Source of the DNA: Desulfovibrio sp.
GTDB taxonomy: Bacteria > Desulfobacterota > Desulfovibrionia > Desulfovibrionales > Desulfovibrionaceae
Length of the DNA stretch: 41,367 nucleotides
Assembly (NCBI GenBank): GCA_017415765.1
Contig: JAFQED010000045.1
Span: 1 to 41,367 of the forward strand
Reading direction: 5' to 3'
The notes below the pieces were generated by a model that saw only the letters and a list, made by a program, of their open reading frames with translations, made no database searches and was not told where the DNA came from. Shown here in pieces: positions 25,296-37,442 of this stretch. The position numbers were made by a program, and so were the translations under genes. Each line of letters opens with the position of its first letter. Position 1 is the first letter of the stretch.

Positions 25296-26432
25296 TCATT
25301 TCTCCTGATAGGGGTCTTCTTCGCCGGGGCTGTCCTCCAGCCGCAGCACGTCCTGCCCAAGCGCATAGTGCATCAGCCTGGGGCGTTCGGCAGAAAGCTT
25401 GAGCGAGTGGATAAGCCGCACCATACGCCGGATGCCTTCCAGCACACCGCCCAAATGTCCTGCCAGAGGAGCAAGGTCGGCATGGGCAAGGCTGCTCCGC
25501 AACTCGCTGACCAGGGCCGCGTTGCGTTCCCCCCCGGATGGACTGGATGCCAGCTCGTTGGCCAACCGCCGCACCCTTCCCAGTACTTCGTCCTGTTCTT
25601 CCAGTAGTTCACTGCAATACTCGGCCTGGTTGCGTATGACATTCAGTGTATTGTTGCCGTAGTGGGCCATGGCCCCTGCAGCCTTTTCCAGCGTATCGCG
25701 GGCCAGTGCCACCCGCCGCCCCACGGTCAACGACACGATACGGGCACATTTGGCAAGAAAACGCTCGTCATACTTGTCAAAACCGTTCTCGCGCCGGGTG
25801 TAAAGCTGCACCAGCCCAAAGGCCGGACGGCTGGCGCGCTCGCGTAACACAAAGGCCAGGCGGGAGCGGTATCCCTCGCGATAGGCAGCGCAGTCCAAGG
25901 AATCCCCCCCACGCTCCAAGGCTTGCAGGTTGTTGGAGAGCACATGTCGGGTCTGCCCTGCGGCTACGGCGTGCATCAAGGGATGAAGGTTCAAGCCTTC
26001 TTCCAGCCATGGGGCCATGAGGGGGATAGCACCACCATCCACAGATTCGGCTGCACGGGTCATCCATTCGCCGCGAGGATTCCGCAGACGGCAGACGTAC
26101 ATCTCGGCATGGAGGGCGTGGACAAGGATCCGCGCACTCTGACGCAGCACCTCCTCTGGCGGGGCCATCTGGTCTGCAATGGCCAGCAGCTCATGCGAGA
26201 CACGCAGCAGGATCTCCGTATCCTGACGGCAGGAGGCTACTGAGGCCAGCAGATCCATAAGTCCGCGCCAGCTCTTCAGCGGTACCCGATGGGCCTCTGG
26301 TCGATAGCCCGCGTCCAGGTTACGCTTGGCCGCTGGCAAAAGTGCGATGATGGCCGCCCGCATCTCGGCCGGAGCCTCAGCCAGTAACAGGGTCAGCTCC
26401 TGCCGGATGTGGATTGGAGATGCGTGCAGCAT
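25296..26432 (-). CDS. GAF-domain protein with DHp-like module and no ATPase domain
   Basis: A protein of 378 residues. Residues 1-75 are helical, 80-245 look like a GAF sensor domain (EVLRQSARILVHALHAEMYVC, then RPAFGLVQLYTRRENGF and FDKYDERFLAKCARIVSL), and 246-360 form a DHp-like four-helix module whose first helix reads AAGAMAHYGNNTLNVIRNQ. His257 is in the position of the phospho-acceptor, with NN-x-L mimicking the HEINNPL box. No N-, G1- or G2-box follows; the protein stops soon after the second helix. It could be a phosphotransfer protein or an inactive kinase relative. It lies between the membrane protein and the HTH gene, overlapping the latter by about 4 bases. Confidence 0.75.
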   Translation of the reverse strand: MLHASPIHIRQELTLLLAEAPAEMRAAIIALLPAAKRNLDAGYRPEAHRVPLKSWRGLMDLLASVASCRQDTEILLRVSHELLAIADQMAPPEEVLRQSARILVHALHAEMYVCRLRNPRGEWMTRAAESVDGGAIPLMAPWLEEGLNLHPLMHAVAAGQTRHVLSNNLQALERGGDSLDCAAYREGYRSRLAFVLRERASRPAFGLVQLYTRRENGFDKYDERFLAKCARIVSLTVGRRVALARDTLEKAAGAMAHYGNNTLNVIRNQAEYCSELLEEQDEVLGRVRRLANELASSPSGGERNAALVSELRSSLAHADLAPLAGHLGGVLEGIRRMVRLIHSLKLSAERPRLMHYALGQDVLRLEDSPGEEDPYQEK

Positions 26433-26479: not shown

Positions 26480-27214
26480 TCAGCTTTCCTGCTTGGAAGT
26501 TGATTTGGTCATGGCAAGGCCCAGCCCTTCAAACAACTCAAAGATGGCAAAACCATACCAGAGCGTATAGATGACATAAAAGATGAGCATACCGGCCATC
26601 AGCCAGATATGGTCAGCTACCCTGGACGCAGGGACACTGTAGAAGTTGTTGCCCGGCTCCACGGCACGCCGGATAACCTGATCCACCACCTGGGCCTCGG
26701 CAATGCGGCCCTGCTTTTGCAATTCCTTGACGGCAGGTACAAGCATTTGCCACCAGGCCGTTGCTACTTTCAACGCGGGTTCGCCGTCATACTTGCGGCT
26801 GACCGGTTCTGCCTGATTGTGGTACAGGTTATCAGAATCATCTACGGCCGAGGCCAGTAAAATACCAAGGTTGCCCTTAAAGGATACCTTGCCACCTTCG
26901 ACCGAAGCCTCACCCGCGCCGGAAGTTTGAACAAGCTTGAGGGCCAGCGGGGCAAGCTCGGCCTTTTTCAGATTGACGGAAAACTCCGCCGTTGTATCAC
27001 GCAGACCGTCCACCTGTGCCCGCACAGCCGGGATAAAGTAGGACGAGCCCTTGGAAAGTTCGTTAAAGACGCCATCGGCGTATTGCAGACCGGTCAACCG
27101 TCCCTTGCCTTCGTTATCGCTGAAAAGCGGGGTCAGAAGCAGGACAAAAAGGGCCAGAAACGATGCCATCAGGAGGCAGCCCCGCACAAAGGGCTTTTTT
27201 GCATGGACAAGCAT
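26480..27214 (-). CDS. two-helix membrane protein cotranscribed with TauE/SafE permease
   Basis: A protein of 244 residues. It has one membrane segment at about 11-32 (VRGCLLMASFLALFVLLLTPLF), a periplasmic domain of about 170 residues and a second segment near 205-226 (HIWLMAGMLIFYVIYTLWYGF) with a short cytoplasmic tail. No known family was recognised. The gene begins one base after the permease stop and has GGAGG seven bases before ATG, so it is translationally close to it. It may be an accessory subunit or sensor for the permease. Confidence 0.75.
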   Translation of the reverse strand: MLVHAKKPFVRGCLLMASFLALFVLLLTPLFSDNEGKGRLTGLQYADGVFNELSKGSSYFIPAVRAQVDGLRDTTAEFSVNLKKAELAPLALKLVQTSGAGEASVEGGKVSFKGNLGILLASAVDDSDNLYHNQAEPVSRKYDGEPALKVATAWWQMLVPAVKELQKQGRIAEAQVVDQVIRRAVEPGNNFYSVPASRVADHIWLMAGMLIFYVIYTLWYGFAIFELFEGLGLAMTKSTSKQES

Positions 27215-27215
27215 A

Positions 27216-28478
27216 TTACGCCTCCCCTCTCAGTTTACCGATATTGGTCACAAACTTGCTGCATACCCAGATGCCGAAGAAGGCCACAACAGCCCAAAAG
27301 ACCACATTGCCCACATCCTCGATCAGCCCCACTACCTGGGGAGACCAGTTCAGCACTTCCATCTCCACCAGTTTCTTGGGCAGGGTCGCAGCGCGGTTGA
27401 TAAAGCCAGCAATGATGGAAATGGCATAGAAACCACGGATATGGATACCCTTGACCACCTTGGTGGTCAGTGCGCCCACCTGGATGCCCAGCAGCGAACC
27501 AAGCAGCATCCCGATGGCCAGCGTATAGAAAACGTAGCCATAGATAGCGTACTGGCCGATGGCGGCAAAACCGGCGGTAAAGATGATTTGCAGGATGTCC
27601 GTACCAACGGTGGTCATGGAGGACACGCCGAAGATATAGACAAACATGGGGAAGGTCACAAAACCGCCGCCCACGCCCATGATAGCGGCCAAAAGCCCTA
27701 CAACCACGCCACCGGCGGCCACGATCCAGCCGGAAATGCGACGCCCGCCAGGCACAAGGTCTTCGTCAAAACTGATCATGGGCGGTAGGGTCACGCCCTG
27801 CATCTTAACCGAGAGGCCTGTCATCCCCGTACTGCCGCCGTGGGCATCCTGACTGGCCCCCGTACCACCGCGGCTGGCGCGCAAAAAGTCAAACAGGGCG
27901 TAAAATCCCAAAAAGCCCAGCAAGACCGCATAAATGCTGCTGATGAACAACTCGGAAAGCAGCGGATCGGCATTGTAAAGCCCCTTGTTGATAGCCCCGC
28001 CGATCACCGTGCCCAGCACCGAACCAGCCAGAAAAGCCACGGCCAGCTTGGCCGAGACGTTGCCCAGCTTTTTGTGTACGGTAGTACCCATGATGGCCTT
28101 GGCAAAGATGTGGAACAGGTCAGTCCCCACCGCCAGGATACCCTTGACGCCCACGGCCATGAGTGCCGGGGTGATGATGAAGCCGCCCCCTGCTCCGATA
28201 CAGCCGGTGATCAGCCCCGCAGCTAGCCCCACGGCGATGGAAGCCAAAAAGATGGTCGTGGTGTAAAAAGCCGGTGCATAGGCCGACTTGCCCCCCAGCA
28301 TCTCGTGCGCTTCATAGGCCTCCACAAGACAGCCCGCCAGCACTGGCACGGCCAGTGCCAGTAAGATAAGAAGCTTTTTGCGGTTTTTGAGGATAGAGGT
28401 AGAAACCTCCAGATCCCAGCGGGCATAGGCTTGCGAGCCCTGCAACATAAACTGGTACAACTGCCTGCCAAATGACAT
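27216..28478 (-). CDS. TauE/SafE-family anion exporter
   Basis: A protein of 420 residues from the ATG with GGGAGGA five bases upstream. After a soluble N-terminal stretch of about 40 residues and a first helix (LLILLALAVPVLAGCLVEA) come two repeats typical of TauE/SafE (DUF81): GLAAGLITGCIGAGGGFIITP and GLLAAIMGVGGGFVTFP (the paired glycine-rich motifs), each followed by further membrane segments. A loop of about 60 residues (GGTGASQDAHGGSTG onward) separates them. The family exports sulfite, sulfoacetate or related organosulfur anions. In a sulfate reducer a sulfite- or sulfonate-linked role is plausible. It lies between a CBS protein and a two-helix membrane protein. Confidence 0.92.
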   Translation of the reverse strand: MSFGRQLYQFMLQGSQAYARWDLEVSTSILKNRKKLLILLALAVPVLAGCLVEAYEAHEMLGGKSAYAPAFYTTTIFLASIAVGLAAGLITGCIGAGGGFIITPALMAVGVKGILAVGTDLFHIFAKAIMGTTVHKKLGNVSAKLAVAFLAGSVLGTVIGGAINKGLYNADPLLSELFISSIYAVLLGFLGFYALFDFLRASRGGTGASQDAHGGSTGMTGLSVKMQGVTLPPMISFDEDLVPGGRRISGWIVAAGGVVVGLLAAIMGVGGGFVTFPMFVYIFGVSSMTTVGTDILQIIFTAGFAAIGQYAIYGYVFYTLAIGMLLGSLLGIQVGALTTKVVKGIHIRGFYAISIIAGFINRAATLPKKLVEMEVLNWSPQVVGLIEDVGNVVFWAVVAFFGIWVCSKFVTNIGKLRGEA

Positions 28479-28548
28479 GACTCCTCCCAACATTGTAGAT
28501 GGCATACCGTGTGTCTGGGGAAAACCCCCAGCCACTACCTGCTATTGC

Positions 28549-30000: not shown

Positions 30001-31182
30001 ATGTTGTCAGCTTCAAACAGCCTTTTTGTCAAGCCTTGGCTCAGCTTGCGCTGGGCCTTGACCCGCAGACAGCGTAAGAACAATTTTGTCTGCCCGGCCC
30101 GTTTCGATCAGGCAGACTCGACAGCAGCAGACCTGACAGGCAAAAAATTTCTCCATTTTCTGACGACATGGGGTCGCTTCTGCTCGGCAACGGACTGCAC
30201 CACAGCAGCGAGGCCTGACAAAGCAGTCTCGGCAGATCAGCTCCGCCATCTGGCACTGGACTGTGTGGACGCGCTGGAAGCGTTGGATCCCGCGCCCTGC
30301 CCTGCGCTGCGCCAGCAACTGAGCGCATGGCAGCCAGCAACAGGCAGCTTGCAGGATGCTCTGGCAGAAAGCCGCCTTGGCCCGTTGTTGCCCAATGTGC
30401 CACAGTCTCTTGCCCGAAACTGCACCTGTCCGCAGGACACAGCGGCCTTTTGCCATGCCCGGGCCGTAGGACGACTGCTGGATCTGGCAGCCGCAGACAC
30501 GGAAAAGCGCGTCCGCCAGCTCAGGGATGGCGTCCCCAAGCAGTTCTGGGCACTGGATCTGGCCCATAGCTTCAGCGGAGCTGCTAAGGATTGCTGCATT
30601 GAGGTGGGGGACATAAATTCTCTTCCCATGCAGGCCCTGTGGCGCGGTATGAACGCCCTGCCCTGGCAGGGGCCACCGGCTGTGAACGGCCGGGGCTTTC
30701 TTTCGGTGCTCTTTGAGGCCACGGCCAATCCCCAACTGGATCCAGCCGCGCAAAAGGCCCTGTTTTACCAGAAGAACCATTTCCTTCTGGCACCCGACTA
30801 CTGCTACCTCCACTCGCGCTTCGGTTTCCATGTTGTGGCAGCCGAAGCGCGGCTCACGGACTCCCCAGCAGACAATCACCTGCGCTTCCAGTTGCAGGGG
30901 GGCGCGGCCAATCTGGAACGACGCAGACTGCGTGCCCTCTTGGTGGCAGATCTGCTGACGCCCTTTGGCTTCAGGGCCGAAGTACGGCACGATGCCGTTG
31001 CCGCATGGTGCAGCCATCTGGATATGGAGGAAGGACGGGCATTGGCGGCCATCATGGGGTACATTGCCATCCACACCCGCCAACTGGACATGATCATGCA
31101 GGATACAGCAGAAGTGGCGGCCCGACGCGCCACCATGCTGGCCCACTGCCAGACCCTGCTACGGGGGCAGTCCCTCTCGTGA
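30001..31182 (+). CDS. stand-alone copy of the domain found at the C-terminus of the PEP-synthase-like protein
   Basis: A protein of up to 393 residues from ATG 30001; this start has no good SD, and TTG codons at 30046 and 30058 are alternatives. Residues from about 190 on match the C-terminal third of the PEP-synthase-like protein encoded at 31620-34274: SLPMQALWRGMNALPWQGPP against SLPMLALWEGLTAVPWAGPP, FQLQGGAANLERRR against FQFKGGAADLGRRS, and FGFRAEVRHDAV against HGFRAEARQDAL. No known enzyme family was recognised. There are several Cys (CSATDC, CTCPQ, KDCC) but no obvious metal site. It begins 46 bases from a divergent regulator. It may be a soluble partner or acceptor in the same phosphotransfer path. 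Confidence 0.78.
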   Translation: MLSASNSLFVKPWLSLRWALTRRQRKNNFVCPARFDQADSTAADLTGKKFLHFLTTWGRFCSATDCTTAARPDKAVSADQLRHLALDCVDALEALDPAPCPALRQQLSAWQPATGSLQDALAESRLGPLLPNVPQSLARNCTCPQDTAAFCHARAVGRLLDLAAADTEKRVRQLRDGVPKQFWALDLAHSFSGAAKDCCIEVGDINSLPMQALWRGMNALPWQGPPAVNGRGFLSVLFEATANPQLDPAAQKALFYQKNHFLLAPDYCYLHSRFGFHVVAAEARLTDSPADNHLRFQLQGGAANLERRRLRALLVADLLTPFGFRAEVRHDAVAAWCSHLDMEEGRALAAIMGYIAIHTRQLDMIMQDTAEVAARRATMLAHCQTLLRGQSLS

Positions 31183-31236: not shown

Positions 31237-31614
31237 ATGCACATACTTTTTGTTGACGATGAACGCGATTTTCTGGAATTGATGGAAAAACGCATGATGC
31301 TGCGGGGCATACCCGCCGCTACGGCCAGTAACGGAGACGAAGCTCTGCAACGTCTTGAGGCCGCCATGCAGGACGGCAAGCCCTTTGACGCTGTAGTGCT
31401 GGATGTCCGTATGCCGGGGGCAGACGGGCTGGAAGTCCTGCGCCGGATAAAGGAACGCGCACCGCAACTGCCCGTCATCCTGCTGACGGGCCATGCCAGC
31501 ATGGGAGTGGCCATGCAGGGGCTTGATCTTGGGGCATACGACTATATGCTCAAACCCATAGGCATCAATGAATTGATCATTAAACTGAACGAAGCGACCC
31601 GCATGGCCGCCTGA
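31237..31614 (+). CDS. single-domain response regulator
   Basis: A protein of 125 residues, only a receiver domain: acidic pair in FVDDE, phospho-acceptor Asp56 in AVVLDVRMPGADG, Thr84 in LLTGH, Lys106 in YMLKP. AAGGAGG lies five bases before the ATG. No output domain is present, so it could be a CheY/DivK-like phosphate shuttle. It sits between two genes that share the unrecognised C-terminal domain, and the next gene starts five bases after its stop. Confidence 0.94.
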   Translation: MHILFVDDERDFLELMEKRMMLRGIPAATASNGDEALQRLEAAMQDGKPFDAVVLDVRMPGADGLEVLRRIKERAPQLPVILLTGHASMGVAMQGLDLGAYDYMLKPIGINELIIKLNEATRMAA

Positions 31615-31619
31615 ACACC

Positions 31620-34274
31620 ATGAGCCTCTGGACACGTTTTTGCCGCTGGTGCCGCCGGGAAGAAATACCTGACAGTGCCCAGCTTGCCCGCGAAGAAGCC
31701 GTCAAGGCAGCGGTGCGCCGCCGCTGCGAGGGCTTTCGTCGTCTGCTTTCTGCCAACAAACGCGCGCTGCAAGCCATAAGCAGTATGGAAGAACTGCTGC
31801 TCGGCCAGCGCGTCTTTGGCATGGAGGAGGTGCGGGGCATCTCCACACGGGCCACAGCGGCTGTTTTTCAGATGGTACGCGAACTGCAAGTTCTGTCCGG
31901 CAACGCATGGCCTACCCTGCCAACTGCCCTGGCAGACATTACGGCCAGGATGGAGGCCCGGCTGGCACATCCCGTCGCGCCCCCGCAGGGGCCGCTGGTC
32001 ATGGACGTGCAAGACCTGCGCCTTGACCATGCCCCCCTTGCCGGTGGCAAGATGGCCAGCCTTGGCGATGTTGCCGCCCATGTAGGGCTGCCCGTGCCAG
32101 ACGGCTTTGTGGTCACGGTGGCGGGTTATGAGCGTCTTATGACCTATGGCGGTCTGCGGGATGAGCTGGAACGGCGTATGCAAGCTGCCGACAGCGAAAA
32201 ACTTGACGACCTGCTGGAACTTTCCTCCGCGCTGCAACGCTGCATACTGGCTGCCCCGTTGCCGCCGGAACTGCTGACAGCCATAGAGACAAGCGTGGCC
32301 GCCCTGTGTGCCCGGCACGGGCCAGACCTCCTGCTGGCCCTGCGGAGCAGTGCCGTGGGTGAAGACGCAGCGGGGCTTTCCTTTGCCGGGCAGTACCGTT
32401 CCGAGCTTCAGGTTCCACCGGCAGAAGCTGTACAGGTCTGGAAGGAGATCATTGCCAGCAAGTATGGCCTTACCGCCCTGACCTACCGTCGCCAGCACGG
32501 CCTTCCAGATCATGCCCTGCCCATGGCCGTGGGCGTGCTGGCCATGGTGCAGGCCAGGGCCGGGGGCGTGGCCTACAGCCGTGACCCAATGGCCGGGCCA
32601 GACAGCCCGGGGCAGGTGGTCATCAACGCTGTGCAGGGCTTGCCCTGTGCCGTGGTGGACGGCAGCCAGACCCCGCATTGCTACCGTTACAGCCGCAGCC
32701 AGCCGCCAGTGCTGGAAGAGGTTTTGCCCGGCGCAGGTAGGCCCCCCCTTGAGGAGGCGCAGGGCCGCCGACTGGCCCGGATGGCCCTGGCTCTTGAAAC
32801 TTGGTATGCAGCACCACAGGATGTGGAGTGGGCACTGGGAGAAGATGGTCAGCTGGTCGTCCTGCAAAGCCGTCCCATGCTACAGCGCACGAATCAGCAG
32901 GATACACAGCGGGGCGCAGCTCTTGCCGCTCTCCCCCAGCTTGCCCAGGGGGGCATAGCGGTTTCTCCGGGGCTGGCTGTCGGCCCAGCCGTTGTGGTGC
33001 GGCGCGAAGCCGATATGCTGGCCTTCCCCGATGGCGGTATCCTTGTGGTGGAACGCGCCCTGCCTCGCTGGGCCCCCCTGCTGGCCAGAGCTGCCGGCCT
33101 TGTTAGCGAAAACGGCGGCGTGGCTGGCCATCTGGCTTCTGTGGCACGGGAATACCGTCTGCCCGCCCTCTTCAGTCTGCCCAACGCCTGTTCCCTGCTG
33201 GCCGGAAAGGGGCAGATCACCCTGGATGCCGAAGGCCAGCGTATCCTGGCCGGGGAAGCACCACTGCCGGACGGGCAGGAGAGGGGTGCCGACAGTCCGG
33301 CCCACCCCCTGCTGGCGGGCAGCCCTGTTTACCAATGTCTGGAAGATGTGGCCCGCTTCGTCACCCCTCTGCATCTGCTTGATCCCGCTTCACCCCACTT
33401 TGCGCCGGAACACTGCCAAAGTCTGCACGACATTACCCGCTTCTGTCACGAAAAAGCAGCGGGACTGCTCTGCGGTGGGCCGGAGGAGCTGGGGGGGCGC
33501 ATGGGCAAACAGCTCAAAGCCGGGGCAAAACTGCAATACTGGGTGCTGGACATGGGTGGCGGTTACCTTGGGTCGGTATCCGGCCCGGTGGTGGAGCTGA
33601 GCCAGATCGCCAGTCTGCCCATGCTGGCCCTTTGGGAAGGGCTGACGGCCGTACCGTGGGCTGGCCCACCACAGGCTGATGCCGGGAGCTTTATGTGTGC
33701 TGTTCTTGAAAGTGCCATGAATCCCGCGCTGGAAAATACCACCGCCAGTACGCTGGCCGAACGGAACTTCTGCATTATTGATGCGGACTATCTCCTCCTG
33801 CAGGCCCGCTACGGCTATCACTTTTCTACGCTGGAATGTCGGATCGCGGCCGAACAGCACCAGAATTTTGTCAGCTTTCAGTTCAAGGGCGGCGCGGCTG
33901 ATCTGGGCCGCCGCAGCGCACGGGCGGTTCTGCTGGCTGGACTGCTGGAAGAGCACGGCTTCAGGGCAGAGGCCCGACAGGATGCCCTCTTTGCCGTGGC
34001 AGAAGGCTTTACGGCCAGCCAGAGCTTGCAGAAGGTCATGCTGCTGGGCTATCTGCTTCTGCACAGCCGCCAGACCGACATCCTGATGCGGGACAGCGCG
34101 CGCGTCCAGCAGCTACGGCAGGAATGGACAGACCGCATGGCTGCGCTGGCAGATGGCTGGCCGCATGTTCAGGCACGTCTGTGCCAGCGGGTCGGGGCGG
34201 CCAGTACGGTGACAGCCAGCCAGGCATCAGGCGATGGAAAAGCGACACCCCCGCAGTCCGTTAGCTGCATGTAA
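31620..34274 (+). CDS. PEP-synthase-like phosphotransferase with novel C-terminal domain
   Basis: A protein of 884 residues. Residues 1-115 are helical. The ATP-grasp domain of PEP synthase/pyruvate phosphate dikinase spans about 128-425, with GGKMASLGD (142-150), RSSAVGEDA (242-250), FAGQY (255-259), DVEWAL (401-406) and LQSRP (415-419). A swivelling phosphohistidine domain follows at 445-545, with the catalytic His504 in NGGVAGHLASVAREYRLPAL. The PEP/pyruvate-binding TIM barrel of true PpsA is missing. In its place residues about 570-830 form a domain shared with the protein encoded at 30001-31182. It probably takes phosphate from ATP on His504 and passes it to an unknown acceptor, somewhat as rifampicin phosphotransferase does with another acceptor. 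Confidence 0.88.
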   Translation: MSLWTRFCRWCRREEIPDSAQLAREEAVKAAVRRRCEGFRRLLSANKRALQAISSMEELLLGQRVFGMEEVRGISTRATAAVFQMVRELQVLSGNAWPTLPTALADITARMEARLAHPVAPPQGPLVMDVQDLRLDHAPLAGGKMASLGDVAAHVGLPVPDGFVVTVAGYERLMTYGGLRDELERRMQAADSEKLDDLLELSSALQRCILAAPLPPELLTAIETSVAALCARHGPDLLLALRSSAVGEDAAGLSFAGQYRSELQVPPAEAVQVWKEIIASKYGLTALTYRRQHGLPDHALPMAVGVLAMVQARAGGVAYSRDPMAGPDSPGQVVINAVQGLPCAVVDGSQTPHCYRYSRSQPPVLEEVLPGAGRPPLEEAQGRRLARMALALETWYAAPQDVEWALGEDGQLVVLQSRPMLQRTNQQDTQRGAALAALPQLAQGGIAVSPGLAVGPAVVVRREADMLAFPDGGILVVERALPRWAPLLARAAGLVSENGGVAGHLASVAREYRLPALFSLPNACSLLAGKGQITLDAEGQRILAGEAPLPDGQERGADSPAHPLLAGSPVYQCLEDVARFVTPLHLLDPASPHFAPEHCQSLHDITRFCHEKAAGLLCGGPEELGGRMGKQLKAGAKLQYWVLDMGGGYLGSVSGPVVELSQIASLPMLALWEGLTAVPWAGPPQADAGSFMCAVLESAMNPALENTTASTLAERNFCIIDADYLLLQARYGYHFSTLECRIAAEQHQNFVSFQFKGGAADLGRRSARAVLLAGLLEEHGFRAEARQDALFAVAEGFTASQSLQKVMLLGYLLLHSRQTDILMRDSARVQQLRQEWTDRMAALADGWPHVQARLCQRVGAASTVTASQASGDGKATPPQSVSCM

Positions 34275-34293
34275 TACGACAAGGAGAAGCTCC

Positions 34294-36024
34294 ATGTTCT
34301 GCAAGATCAGACAGCAGCTTGCCCGTCTGCTGGACATCTCCGAGGGGCTTTCCCCGGCGCACTATCGCGCTCTCAGACGCCTGATGACCTTTCTGATGGT
34401 CAGCGTCTCTGTAACTCCCCTGCTGGTACTTTCGGCCTTCAGTCATATCCAGTACAGCCGTATGGTGGAACAGGAGCTGGAAGCCCCGCTGGATACGCTG
34501 GCCCGCAAGTCCCGTGCCTCGCTGGAGCTTTTTCTGGGCGAGCGTTTCTCTACAGTGAGTTTCATTGCCCATGCCCACAGTTTCGCCTCTCTGAACCACC
34601 CGGACGCGTTCCGGCGCGTCTTTCTGGCCCTCACCAGCGAATTTCACGGTTTTGTGGACATGGGTCTGGTCAATGCCGAAGGACATCAGGTGGACTATGT
34701 CGGCCCCTACCAGCTCAAGGGGGCAGATTATGCCGGTCAGCCCTGGCTGCGCGAGGCAGAAATCAAGGGCCGGTACATCAGTAATGTCTTTCTGGGGTTG
34801 CGGGACTTCCCGCATATGGTCATGGCCGTACACCGGCTGGAGGCCGATGGTACCCGCTGGACCCTGCGCGTGACCATCGACATCTCGCAGCTGGAAAAAG
34901 CTCTCATGCCTACCGGGCCGGACAGGGAAACAGATGTTTTTCTCTGCGACGGGAACAACATCCTCCAGACCAATTCGCGCCTTTACGGCAAGGCATTAGA
35001 AAAACTGCCGCTGTCCCTGCCCCCGGTGGGTCTGGAGCCTGCTGTCCATCACCTGAACGCCGATGGCCAGCAGTTGCTGGTGGGTACGGCCCTGCTGAGC
35101 GGCACTGACCTGCGGCTGGTAGCGGTCAAGTCCGGGCCTGAGGCACTCAGGCCGTGGACAAGCCTGCAAAGTGAGCTGATCCTTGTCCTTTGCGGGGGTA
35201 TCGTCATCATCGTGCTGGTTTCGCATTTTCTGATGAAGGCACTGGTGGCACGGCTGCAAGCCGCTGATGAACACCGGGCGGCCATTACTGCCCAGATGGA
35301 ACATCAGCACAAGCTCTCGTCCATCGGGCGTCTGGCAGCGGGGGTGGCCCACGAGATAAACAATCCCCTTGCCGTCATTCTGGAAAAAGCCGGGCTGGCA
35401 CAGGACATACTGCGCCTTTCTCCTTCAAATGGAAATCAGCCCCAGGCAGACAGCCTCCTTCCTCTGCTGGACGGCATTGAACGCACCGTACTCCGGGCGC
35501 GCAACATTACCCGGCGTCTGCTCGGCTTCTCGCGCCGGATGGAAGCCTCGTGCCAGCCCCTGCGGCTGGAACAGATCATAGCCGAAAGCCTTGATTTTCT
35601 TGGGAACGAAGCCGCCCACCGTGGGGTGGAGATCACCGTGCGTCTGCCCGAAAATCTGCCTGATGTCGTCTCTGACCAAAGCCAGCTGCAACAGGTTTTT
35701 CTGAACCTGCTGGGCAACGCCCTGGATGCTCTTGAGGGGCAGCAGGCCGGACGTATTGAGATAGATGGTAAACTTTCTGATACTGAAACAGTGCTCATCA
35801 CCGTGCGTGACAATGGTAAGGGTATGTCGCCAGAAATGCTCCGCCATATCTTTGAGCCTTTCTACTCCAGCAAACGGGAGAAAGGTACGGGCCTTGGCAT
35901 GTTTATCACCTATGCCATAATACGGCGACTGGGCGGCGATATAGTGGTTCACAGTCAACAGGATGCGGGGACAACCGTACACGTCAGTCTGCCCGTACAT
36001 GCACAGGTCATTTCGGAGGCTTAG
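34294..36024 (+). CDS. Cache-type membrane sensor histidine kinase
   Basis: A protein of 576 residues from the ATG with AAGGAG seven bases upstream. Membrane segment 1 is about 30-50, an extracytoplasmic dCache-like domain covers 55-285 (FHGFVDMGLVNAEG, WLREAEIKGRYISNVFLG, FPHMVMAVHR), and segment 2 is 293-316. The DHp has phospho-acceptor His353 in GVAHEINNPLAVI. The ATPase has an N-box (NLLGNALDAL), G1 (DNGKGM), F-box (FEPFYSSK) and G2 (GTGLGMFI). Cache domains bind small ligands such as carboxylates or amino acids. It is the only complete histidine kinase in the island and is followed after one base by a receiver gene. Confidence 0.94.
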   Translation: MFCKIRQQLARLLDISEGLSPAHYRALRRLMTFLMVSVSVTPLLVLSAFSHIQYSRMVEQELEAPLDTLARKSRASLELFLGERFSTVSFIAHAHSFASLNHPDAFRRVFLALTSEFHGFVDMGLVNAEGHQVDYVGPYQLKGADYAGQPWLREAEIKGRYISNVFLGLRDFPHMVMAVHRLEADGTRWTLRVTIDISQLEKALMPTGPDRETDVFLCDGNNILQTNSRLYGKALEKLPLSLPPVGLEPAVHHLNADGQQLLVGTALLSGTDLRLVAVKSGPEALRPWTSLQSELILVLCGGIVIIVLVSHFLMKALVARLQAADEHRAAITAQMEHQHKLSSIGRLAAGVAHEINNPLAVILEKAGLAQDILRLSPSNGNQPQADSLLPLLDGIERTVLRARNITRRLLGFSRRMEASCQPLRLEQIIAESLDFLGNEAAHRGVEITVRLPENLPDVVSDQSQLQQVFLNLLGNALDALEGQQAGRIEIDGKLSDTETVLITVRDNGKGMSPEMLRHIFEPFYSSKREKGTGLGMFITYAIIRRLGGDIVVHSQQDAGTTVHVSLPVHAQVISEA

Positions 36025-36025
36025 G

Positions 36026-36418
36026 ATGGACATCCTGCTGGTGGATGATGAACTGGATTTCATTGAACCTCTGGCCCAGCGTCTGCGTCTGCGCGGGTAC
36101 AAGGCCCGGTTTGCGACAAATGGTGAGGCTCTGTTGGATCAACTGGCCAAATCCCCTCCGGATGTCCTGGTGCTGGACTGGGGTATGCCCGGCCTGAGCG
36201 GCCCAATCCTGCTGGAGCGCATCCATACGGGCTGGCCTACCCTGCCGCTTGTTATCCTGAGCGGTTACAACACTCCCAAGGGACTCCGGCAAGAAAACTG
36301 GCCCCAAATCCGTGAGGTTCTCACAAAACCATTGCACTTCAACGGTTTTCTGGAAATACTGGAGGGCGTGTGTCCCAGCCGGGGCAACACAGTGCCCCAG
36401 CAAGGAGACAATGCATGA
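36026..36418 (+). CDS. single-domain response regulator
   Basis: A protein of 130 residues, receiver only: LLVDDELDF, phospho-acceptor Asp51 in VLVLDWGMPGLSG, and Lys101 in VLTKPLHF. GGAGG precedes the ATG by about 7 bases. The C-terminal tail of about 15 residues (GNTVPQQGD) is probably disordered. It overlaps the next gene by the ATGA type. The usual post-Asp basic residue is replaced (DWGMP), a small departure seen in some receivers. Confidence 0.93.
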   Translation: MDILLVDDELDFIEPLAQRLRLRGYKARFATNGEALLDQLAKSPPDVLVLDWGMPGLSGPILLERIHTGWPTLPLVILSGYNTPKGLRQENWPQIREVLTKPLHFNGFLEILEGVCPSRGNTVPQQGDNA

Positions 36419-37080
36419 GCCACACCGCCTGTATGGCCCGCCTGTTGGCTTCGGCCGTACACGATATGCGCAACATTCTTGCCGTTATCAGAGAATCGGC
36501 TGGTCTGGCGCAGGACATCACCCGCTTTGGCGACGGCTCGGCCGCAAGCCGAAAGGAGCTGGAGATCTCGCTGGACGAAGTGCGCCGTCAGGTGGTGCTG
36601 GCGGCCCAACTGGCCGAAGGGCTGGAATTTATGGCCCAGAACGGGCCGCCACGGGGCAGTCTGTCCCAAAGCGGTGCAACCGGTGACAAGAGCAACTCCT
36701 GTGATCTTGCCCGCGTCTGCCGCCTGTTCTGCCGCATGGCAGCACGTCAGGCCAGGGCGGCACAAATTCGGCTGGAGTGCGCGGAAAATACAGAACCTGT
36801 CTGGATGGAAAGCCGCCCCATGCCTGTCCTGCACTGTCTGCTGGATGTGCTGGACTCCTGTGTGTCTGTGGGTGGCAAGGTTGACCTGCACTTGGCCGCA
36901 ACACAACAGGAAGGGGCAACGGGTATTGCAGTGCGCGTCAGCGGCGGAGACAATGAGGCTCTTGCCCTTTCCGCGCTAACGGCCTGTCTGCGCCCCATAC
37001 AGGGGATGACCTGCGCCCGTTTGCTTTCCACCGGGCCGGGGACATTTTTTCTTGTATTGCCTACCGGAGAGGAAGGATGA
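36415..37080 (+). CDS. DHp-domain protein with decayed ATPase (histidine phosphotransfer-like)
   Basis: A protein of 221 residues. The first helix carries a kinase H-box, ASAVHDMRNILAVIRESAG (His16), then a second helix EVRRQVVLAAQLAEGLEF. The remainder has the size and strand order of a HATPase domain (CDLARVCRLFCRMAARQA, IRLECAENTEPVW, PVLHCLLDVLDSC), but the N-box Asn, the G1 DxGxG and the G2 GxG are not recognisable. It therefore probably cannot bind ATP and may act as a phosphotransfer protein between receivers, as ChpT does in other bacteria. It overlaps both neighbouring receiver genes by four bases. Confidence 0.8.
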   Translation: MSHTACMARLLASAVHDMRNILAVIRESAGLAQDITRFGDGSAASRKELEISLDEVRRQVVLAAQLAEGLEFMAQNGPPRGSLSQSGATGDKSNSCDLARVCRLFCRMAARQARAAQIRLECAENTEPVWMESRPMPVLHCLLDVLDSCVSVGGKVDLHLAATQQEGATGIAVRVSGGDNEALALSALTACLRPIQGMTCARLLSTGPGTFFLVLPTGEEG

Positions 37081-37442
37081 CGCATATCAAGGTCTTGCTG
37101 GTGGATGACGAACGCCGCTTTGTAGAAACCCTGGCCGAACGTCTGCGCTTGCGCGGCCTTGCACCCACTGTGGCCTTTGACGGTAAAGAGGCCCTGGACG
37201 CCGCCACCCGCCCGGTGGACGTTATTGTGCTGGACTTGCGGATGCCGGGTATGGATGGCTTTGAGGTGCTGCGCAAGGTCAAGGCCAGTAATCCGCAAGT
37301 GCAGGTCATCATCCTGACGGGACACGGCGGCGATGGCGAGGAGGAAACCGCCTACCGGCTGGGGGCCTGCGACTTTCTCCGCAAACCTGCCGATATTGAT
37401 GAACTCATGCACAGCATCAAAACTGCCTGTCAGATCCGTTAG
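37077..37442 (+). CDS. single-domain response regulator
   Basis: A protein of 121 residues, receiver only: VLLVDDERRF, phospho-acceptor Asp53 in VIVLDLRMPGMDG, Thr81 in ILTGH, Lys103 in FLRKPADIDEL. It starts by ATGA overlap with the DHp-protein gene, with GGAGAGGAAGG upstream. It is the last gene of the right arm. Its stop codon TAG (37440-37442) is the first triplet of the repeat at 37440-37591, so the C-terminus may have been cut or reset by the repeat. Confidence 0.93.
   Translation: MTHIKVLLVDDERRFVETLAERLRLRGLAPTVAFDGKEALDAATRPVDVIVLDLRMPGMDGFEVLRKVKASNPQVQVIILTGHGGDGEEETAYRLGACDFLRKPADIDELMHSIKTACQIR

Follow-up and report, generated by a model that had tools for sequence, protein, structure and literature searches.

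A PEP-synthase-like protein with an unnamed C-terminal domain in place of the PEP/pyruvate barrel, and its genomic partnership with TauE permeases and two-component genes

What might a protein built like phosphoenolpyruvate (PEP) synthase phosphorylate, and what might switch it, when a domain without a name stands where the PEP/pyruvate barrel is expected? The question is raised by a 41,367-nucleotide stretch of Desulfovibrio sp. DNA (phylum Desulfobacterota; contig JAFQED010000045.1 of assembly GCA_017415765.1), the whole of which we call the window, and which encodes such a protein, P0001. A preliminary description made from the letters of the window held that P0001 has intact ATP-grasp motifs and an intact swivelling histidine, lacks a TIM-barrel segment after them, ends in some 300 residues of a different domain and phosphorylates a new acceptor, perhaps linked to the adjacent receivers. 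The analysis reported here confirms the observation and partly supports the interpretation: a known donor chemistry is combined with a C-terminal module that is new, in genomic company that is unusual. Our proposal, which we consider evenly balanced between right and wrong, is that P0001 is an ATP-dependent phosphotransferase of the PEP synthase kind in which an unnamed acceptor- or target-binding domain takes the place of the barrel, and that it would form one unit with a TauE permease and be switched by a histidine kinase and receivers.

Results

An intact donor module is followed by a domain that is not a recognizable barrel

The four ATP-grasp motifs named in the preliminary description were all located in P0001 (GGKMASLGD at residue 142, RSSAVGEDA at 242, DVEWAL at 401 and LQSRP at 415), and the key residues K144, R242, D401/E403 and Q416/R418 are all present. 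The swivel motif NGGVAGHLASVARE starts at residue 498, which places the histidine at 504, as previously numbered. When P0001 was scanned against Pfam with E values up to 1, PPDK_N matched at 7e-68 and the PEP-utilizers swivel domain matched residues 469-538 at 1e-14; a single match below cut-off fell at 445-464, and there were no matches after residue 538. About 120 additional residues, absent from the earlier list of parts, precede the ATP-grasp domain. Among PDB sequences, the best relatives carry the name PEP synthase (with alignments shown for residues 125-356 and 373-539), and P0001 scored 249.6 bits against one NCBIfam PEP synthase model (cut-off 598) and 240.4 bits against another (cut-off 739.75), below the cut-off in both cases. 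From these intact residues, and by analogy with relatives such as HpeHI, we presume that ATP phosphorylates His504.

The remainder of the protein is of another kind. PF02896, the PEP/pyruvate barrel, had no match in P0001 in the same Pfam scan; it matched 97 of 99 genomes of the phylum and matched twice in P0001's own genome (listed place G000:C30). Profile comparison with hhalign gave the C-terminal domain (CTD) family a probability of 1.0 against PPDK barrels, 0.1 against PEPS barrels and 0.2 against EI barrels, whereas the barrels scored 99.9-100 against each other and the intact and dead CTD groups described below scored 100. Because of the missing PF02896 match and these low probabilities, the last 300 residues are, at the level of sequence, a different domain with no TIM-barrel segment after the swivel, as the preliminary description had it, and we rejected a degenerate barrel as the identity of the CTD. 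When 63 CTDs of the family were scanned singly, PF02896 was absent among the families matched and neither Pfam nor NCBIfam gave a significant match (best E 0.014, the matches being scattered over unrelated families, each matched by one to three of the CTDs). A 63-row CTD profile run against PDB sequences returned a lone chance-level chain (E 2.1), and our searches of open-licence PMC papers listed none on the domain.

What the CTD conserves is far clearer. Every one of the 137 CTD copies, those with dead or missing donor modules included, has D604, H610, H734, G757, G758, R768 and D820, and R817 is kept in 135, the exceptions being K in L143 and Q in L088. These eight positions were picked from the 63-row alignment, which covers 61 of the 137 copies, and all 76 copies outside that defining alignment keep the seven invariant residues. 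All five donor motifs (K, R, DxE, QxR and His) are complete in 114 of the copies, implying that most of the family is under selection for phosphotransfer. The other 23 copies, each short of at least one motif, comprise 11 dead paralogues, three CTD-only proteins, L062, one L081 copy and seven other cases, namely four cut by an end of the DNA fetched (L057, L064, L202, L206), a split frame (L063), a probable misalignment (L203) and a short open reading frame (ORF; L076). The split case, L063:8215-10789 on the minus strand, is a CTD protein seemingly in two frames (634 and 177 amino acids) in one genome, either a frameshift or an assembly error. Long ORFs were also scanned for fusion clues; L061 and L089 held no extra Pfam domain, so that the N-terminal extension of L061 may be mere open frame, and L082 held one below cut-off.

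The CTD family is widespread among sulfate reducers of the phylum

A single-sequence search found the CTD in 107 of 297 genomes sampled from the phylum, and a profile gave the same count with a two-sided result, the weakest best E among the 107 being about 1e-61 and the other 190 having no match at 0.001. Many genomes hold several copies, and the listed matches lie mostly in open frames of 850-950 amino acids. Counted within the phylum, then, the CTD family is large, unnamed and widespread, not an isolated oddity. We compared its occurrence with that of dsrA, which exceeded its curated cut-off in 143 of 297 genomes: 102 of the 107 CTD genomes were dsrA-positive, as against 41 of the 190 without a CTD (Fisher p 1e-38, uncorrected for shared ancestry). 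The five CTD genomes without dsrA over cut-off (G042, G078, G094, G113 and G164) are 62-80% complete. No CTD match was found on plasmids by tblastn, and a scan of viral contigs gave nine pattern matches, none a relative. P0001 alone as a query against genome contigs reached two loci, and an alignment query would reach further.

Three observations concern individual genomes. G235, of the same genus as the window and listed as 100% complete, has no CTD match, and its dsrA matches are partial and below cut-off. At L081:5942-14233 (minus strand), three neighbouring CTD-bearing ORFs adjoin a short TauE gene. Across the eight genomes searched in the L081 genus, 7 to 14 stretches each match the full-length PEPS-like query, a count that may include pieces and barrel-type dikinases.

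CTD genes keep company with receivers, kinases and TauE permeases

We next compared the surroundings of 37 further CTD loci, one per genome (38 were fetched, and L158, of 4.1 kb, was dropped for length), with those of 39 barrel-bearing PEPS/PPDK/EI genes. The neighbour sets were taken from the listed matches of the single-sequence search, not at random. Profiles for receivers, histidine kinases, TauE and the small protein encoded from 26480 in the window (the 26480 type) came from all loci pooled and served for both sets alike; typing covered these classes and the CTD, and intergenic gaps are approximate, ORFs having been called from the furthest start. Within 5 kb, a receiver-only ORF was present at 27/37 CTD loci and 0/39 controls, a histidine kinase at 26/37 and 1/39, and a TauE permease at 23/37 and 0/39 (p below 1e-9 for each). 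Any receiver-containing ORF was found at 29/37 against 3/39, and a 26480-type protein at 14/37 against 0/39. The 38 CTD loci fetched first, a set that favours close relatives and includes G040 and G020 twice each, had a receiver-only ORF at 31, a kinase at 26, TauE at 23 and a 26480 protein at 18.

The partnership with TauE extends to subtype. TauE lay within 6 kb of 70 of 137 CTD rows, the other 67 having none in the stretch examined, and among those 70 rows (some loci having both types) CTD clade I was paired with 40 long and 7 short TauE proteins and clade II with 5 long and 18 short. Distances between CTDs correlated with those between the nearest TauE proteins beyond the permutation maximum (n 46, rho 0.43, maximum 0.28), whereas they stayed within the permutations for the nearest receivers (n 59, rho 0.25, maximum 0.35) and showed next to nothing for the nearest kinases (n 55, rho 0.01); all of these correlations are uncorrected for the shared species tree. 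Because CTD distances track TauE better than receivers or kinases, the receivers seem likelier to be inputs than acceptors set aside for this protein.

A sister lineage has lost its donor residues and kept its CTD

The window holds a second CTD, in a gene ahead of P0001 (30001-31182), whose product is 35% identical to the P0001 CTD over 242 positions. Seven genomes of the same genus have, as its counterpart, a full-length protein beside an intact PEPS-like one; this counterpart lacks the lysine of GGK, both acidic residues of DxE and the glutamine of QxR, and has Arg in place of His. Four genomes of two other genera in the same family have a dead counterpart as well, with His replaced by Gln or Arg. 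The 11 dead proteins and three CTD-only proteins (those of the window, L035 and L036) form one clade with SH-aLRT support of 99, the CTD-only proteins nested inside it, in a tree made by a quick method that gave long-branch warnings and in which the window CTD-only row has an unusual residue make-up. The N termini of the CTD-only proteins match about residues 20-140 of the dead full-length paralogues (best E 3e-8 for L036, 1e-6 for the window and 1e-4 for L035), so that the ATP-grasp and swivel domains have apparently been lost and the N-terminal domain and CTD retained.

This sister lineage, without the key ATP-site residues and His and reduced in the window to an N-terminal domain and CTD, is new in this analysis. 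Since the conserved CTD residues are kept in its dead and CTD-only members, the CTD has a function that does not need a donor in cis. The 30001-31182 protein, which comes from a paralogue that lost its donor parts, probably acts as the subunit of a partner pair or as one more copy that binds the target. A TauE-associated PEPS-like protein from another genus, L062:7302-9707 (plus strand), has no swivel match and degenerate ATP motifs, and is sister to the dead lineage.

A nitrate cluster of Desulfovibrio appears to hold a CTD-family homologue

A published study (PMC4001038) describes a nitrate cluster, DVU0251-DVU0245 / Dde_0597-0605, whose order in the DVU genes is TauE, hypothetical protein, PtxB-like protein, kinase, receiver, PEP-utilising protein and phosphatase, the kinase gene DVU0248 being annotated as a pseudogene in DvH. 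In that study, mutants isolated with an insertion in DVU0246 (PEPS-like), DVU0247 (receiver), DVU0250 or DVU0251 (TauE) grew equally with and without 100 mM nitrate, a nitrate-resistant phenotype, with pooled data disagreeing with the isolated-mutant result for DVU0250; its authors propose a leaky thiosulfate transporter and call the gene roles not immediately obvious (PMC4001038).

Our locus L080 has the same order, with a phosphonate-binding protein, a HAMP/PAS kinase, a 119-amino acid receiver, a PEPS-like protein with the CTD and a DSP phosphatase, and its receiver is equal in length to DVU0247 (360 bp). L087 and L088 have the kinase, the 119-amino acid receiver and the PEPS-like gene in common with L080, and these syntenic PEPS-like genes, from a related genus, carry the CTD; Pfam was run on L080, and L087 and L088 were less fully checked. 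Judged from this synteny, the nitrate cluster appears to hold a CTD-family homologue, so that one branch of the family would have a published mutant phenotype. The DSP-type phosphatase that adjoins the PEPS-like gene (L080:6218-7231, minus strand) might dephosphorylate the phosphohistidine or whatever accepts its phosphate.

The neighbourhood of P0001 in the window

The same-strand cluster of P0001 holds three receivers, and the TauE permease and 26480 protein lie upstream on the opposite strand (Table 1). The HisKA-like protein between two of the receivers could be a phosphotransfer intermediate. Farther upstream, 25296-26432 (minus strand) encodes a 378-amino acid protein with no Pfam match over cut-off, which is 75-76% identical in the named Desulfovibrio relatives L035 and L036.

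Table 1. P0001, its domains and neighbouring genes, in positions of the window
Feature	Position	Strand	Remarks
P0001, PEP-synthase-like protein	31620..34274	+	single open frame, 884 amino acids; N-terminal domain, ATP-grasp, swivel, CTD
P0001 N-terminal domain	31620..31994	+	about residues 1-125; not covered by the match to PEP synthase
P0001 ATP-grasp domain	32034..32909	+	PPDK_N in two stretches, best 139-366; extends to about 430 through DVEW and LQSRP
P0001 swivelling phosphohistidine domain	32949..33263	+	about residues 444-548; Pfam PEP-utilizers 469-538; His504 codon 33129-33131
P0001 CTD	33345..34169	+	about residues 576-850; conserved D604, H610, H734, G757, G758, R768, R817, D820
CTD-only paralogue	30001..31182	+	393 amino acids from ATG 30001; N-terminal domain and CTD; ATP-grasp and swivel absent
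Stand-alone receiver	31237..31614	+	PF00072 E 2e-27; ends 5 bp before P0001
Sensor histidine kinase ORF	34234..36024	+	HisKA and HATPase_c over cut-off, dCache below; internal ATG 34294; scanned from 34285
Stand-alone receiver ORF	35963..36418	+	internal ATG 36026; scanned from 36017
HisKA-like protein without recognised ATPase domain	36370..37080	+	HisKA E 3e-4, below curated cut-off
Stand-alone receiver	37077..37442	+	Pfam scan
TauE/SafE family permease	27216..28535	-	PF01925 E 5e-36; frequent neighbour of the CTD family
Small protein without Pfam match	26480..27214	-	found with the long TauE type at many loci across the phylum

Discussion

We infer phosphotransfer, receiver control and an action on transport from the observations above, and the steps would run as follows. 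Once His504 is phosphorylated, the swivel domain would presumably carry the phosphate to the site of the eight conserved CTD residues. P0001 would act as one unit with the TauE-family anion permease of sulfate reducers, and the adjacent histidine kinase and stand-alone receivers would switch it; the candidate acceptors are the transported compound, the transporter, a partner CTD or a histidine of the CTD itself.

Several points weigh against this proposal. Phosphotransfer by P0001 is argued from sequence, and the dead and CTD-only copies persist, so that the CTD has a role that needs no donor in cis. The partnership is also incomplete: TauE is missing within 5 kb at 14/37 loci and a receiver-only ORF at 10/37, and a same-strand receiver lies directly adjacent (within 60 bp) at only 10/37 loci, or 11/38 in the set fetched first. 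The nitrate cluster brings difficulties of its own. No TauE was identified in L080, and DVU0246 (annotated at 2235 bp) is tied to the CTD family by L080 synteny and not by its own sequence. In the mutant study, the isolated DVU0245 mutant was nitrate-inhibited, and the DVU0248 mutant had, in preliminary data, an advantage that was small or absent (PMC4001038).

A bolder form of the proposal is tentative, and we would sooner bet against it than for it. It sees here a dedicated phosphotransfer system of sulfate reducers outside the sugar phosphotransferase system (PTS), in which the ATP-charged swivel His, acting through the new domain, would energise or gate the TauE permease under two-component control, the dead or even donor-less paralogue being a second subunit that would share the phosphate or target in trans.

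P0001 might instead be a metabolic dikinase, an explanation that we think rather unlikely. Here the CTD would bind an imported sulfur oxyanion, sulfonate or product, which phospho-His504 would phosphorylate and thereby trap or activate after TauE uptake, as HpeHI does with phenolics, and the two-component genes would do no more than regulate its expression or activity. The precedent of HpeHI, CreHI and PpsAB, with a different acceptor domain (PMC12167813), speaks for it, as do the intact donor residues of 114 copies, the enzyme-like set of invariant charged CTD residues, the match of CTD clade to TauE subtype and the 102 of 107 CTD genomes that are dsrA-positive. The donor-dead and donor-deleted lineages are harder to accommodate; they keep all eight tested CTD residues, which a purely catalytic acceptor site need not do unless it worked in trans. 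A recurring metabolic enzyme would also lie outside the classes that our neighbour typing covered.

A phosphorelay, towards which the preliminary description pointed, would have phospho-His504 pass its phosphate on to aspartates in the neighbouring receivers. The link to receivers that the description proposed stood up as gene proximity, in the receiver-only ORFs near 27/37 loci and none of the controls and in the three receivers of the window cluster, but not as co-variation, receiver distances failing to track the CTD beyond permutations. Sensor kinases, the usual phosphorylators of receivers, are near 26/37 loci, and a relay of this kind leaves the CTD without a role. We know of no precedent for transfer from a swivel His to an Asp. 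Direct transfer to the receivers is possible, but we judge it improbable, and the data favour it least.

Equally improbable, in our estimation, is a non-catalytic sensor, whose ATP-grasp and swivel domains would sense ATP/AMP and shift conformation, with the CTD as an effector whose binding target is the permease or some other partner. Such a sensor would suit the survival, in one clade, of dead and CTD-only copies beside intact ones, and CTD residues conserved irrespective of donor state, but would leave unexplained why most copies retain the whole set of K, R, DxE, QxR and His. As for an ordinary or degenerate PEP synthase with a diverged barrel, the ATP-grasp and swivel domains do score highly on PEP synthase models, but the shortfall from the cut-offs (240 and 250 bits against 740 and 598), the hhalign probabilities and the lack of PF02896 in all 63 CTDs make it very hard to believe.

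Our preferred proposal, of a phosphotransferase forming one unit with a TauE permease, matters in several respects. A well-understood phosphate donor is joined to an unnamed domain in 107 of 297 genomes of the phylum, 102 of them dsrA-positive, and the dead and CTD-only paralogues are an almost ready-made test of the role of that domain. If the unit controls or drives sulfur-oxyanion uptake, this would explain the nitrate phenotype and would connect signal transduction, phosphotransfer and anion transport in a new way. The apparent tie to nitrate sensitivity (PMC4001038) bears on the dosing of nitrate against oil-field souring.

Comparison with known systems

In P0001, as in PEP synthase (PpsA; TIGR01418, NF005057), the ATP-grasp domain bears the K, R, DxE and QxR motifs, and the swivel domain with its catalytic His comes next. 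P0001 differs in having no PF02896 barrel, an additional N-terminal domain and a CTD with no kinship at profile level. For PEP synthase the canonical swivel motif is GGXT(S/C)HAA (PMC12167813); the motif of P0001 reads GGVAGHLA, so that the regulatory Thr is Ala there.

Rifampin phosphotransferase (RPH) and the phenolic dikinases have the same logic of ATP to His to acceptor, with another acceptor domain in the barrel's stead. HpeHI, like its homologues CreHI and PpsAB, is a dikinase that uses a swivel His and a different acceptor domain; replacing the conserved His of HpeHI abolished activity, and AMP was its main nucleotide product (PMC12167813). In RPH and these dikinases the swivel is C-terminal (the RPH His motif lies within 50 residues of the C terminus, and the HpeH swivel is the C-terminal 120 residues; PMC12167813), whereas that of P0001 is central (469-538 of 884) with the new domain after it. 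P0001 scored 182.6 bits on the RPH model, under its cut-off of 999; it is set apart from these enzymes by domain order and model score.

PTS enzyme I (PtsI/PtsP) also has a swivel phosphohistidine domain and resembles our proposal in the idea of transport-tied phosphotransfer, and P0001 differs from it in lacking the barrel and in drawing its phosphate through an ATP-grasp domain and not from PEP. On the transport side, import of sulfite has been proposed for a TauE homologue of Archaeoglobus (PMC3949148).

There is a likeness also with the nitrate cluster, in which a TauE permease, a histidine kinase, a receiver and a PEP-utilising protein occur together and whose syntenic PEPS-like counterparts in a related genus have the same CTD. 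A phosphonate-binding-like protein and a DSP-type phosphatase are further members of that cluster, whereas at the window locus the long TauE comes with the 26480 protein and there is a CTD-only paralogue, and the CTDs of L080, L087 and L088 sit on the other main side of the tree from that of the window.

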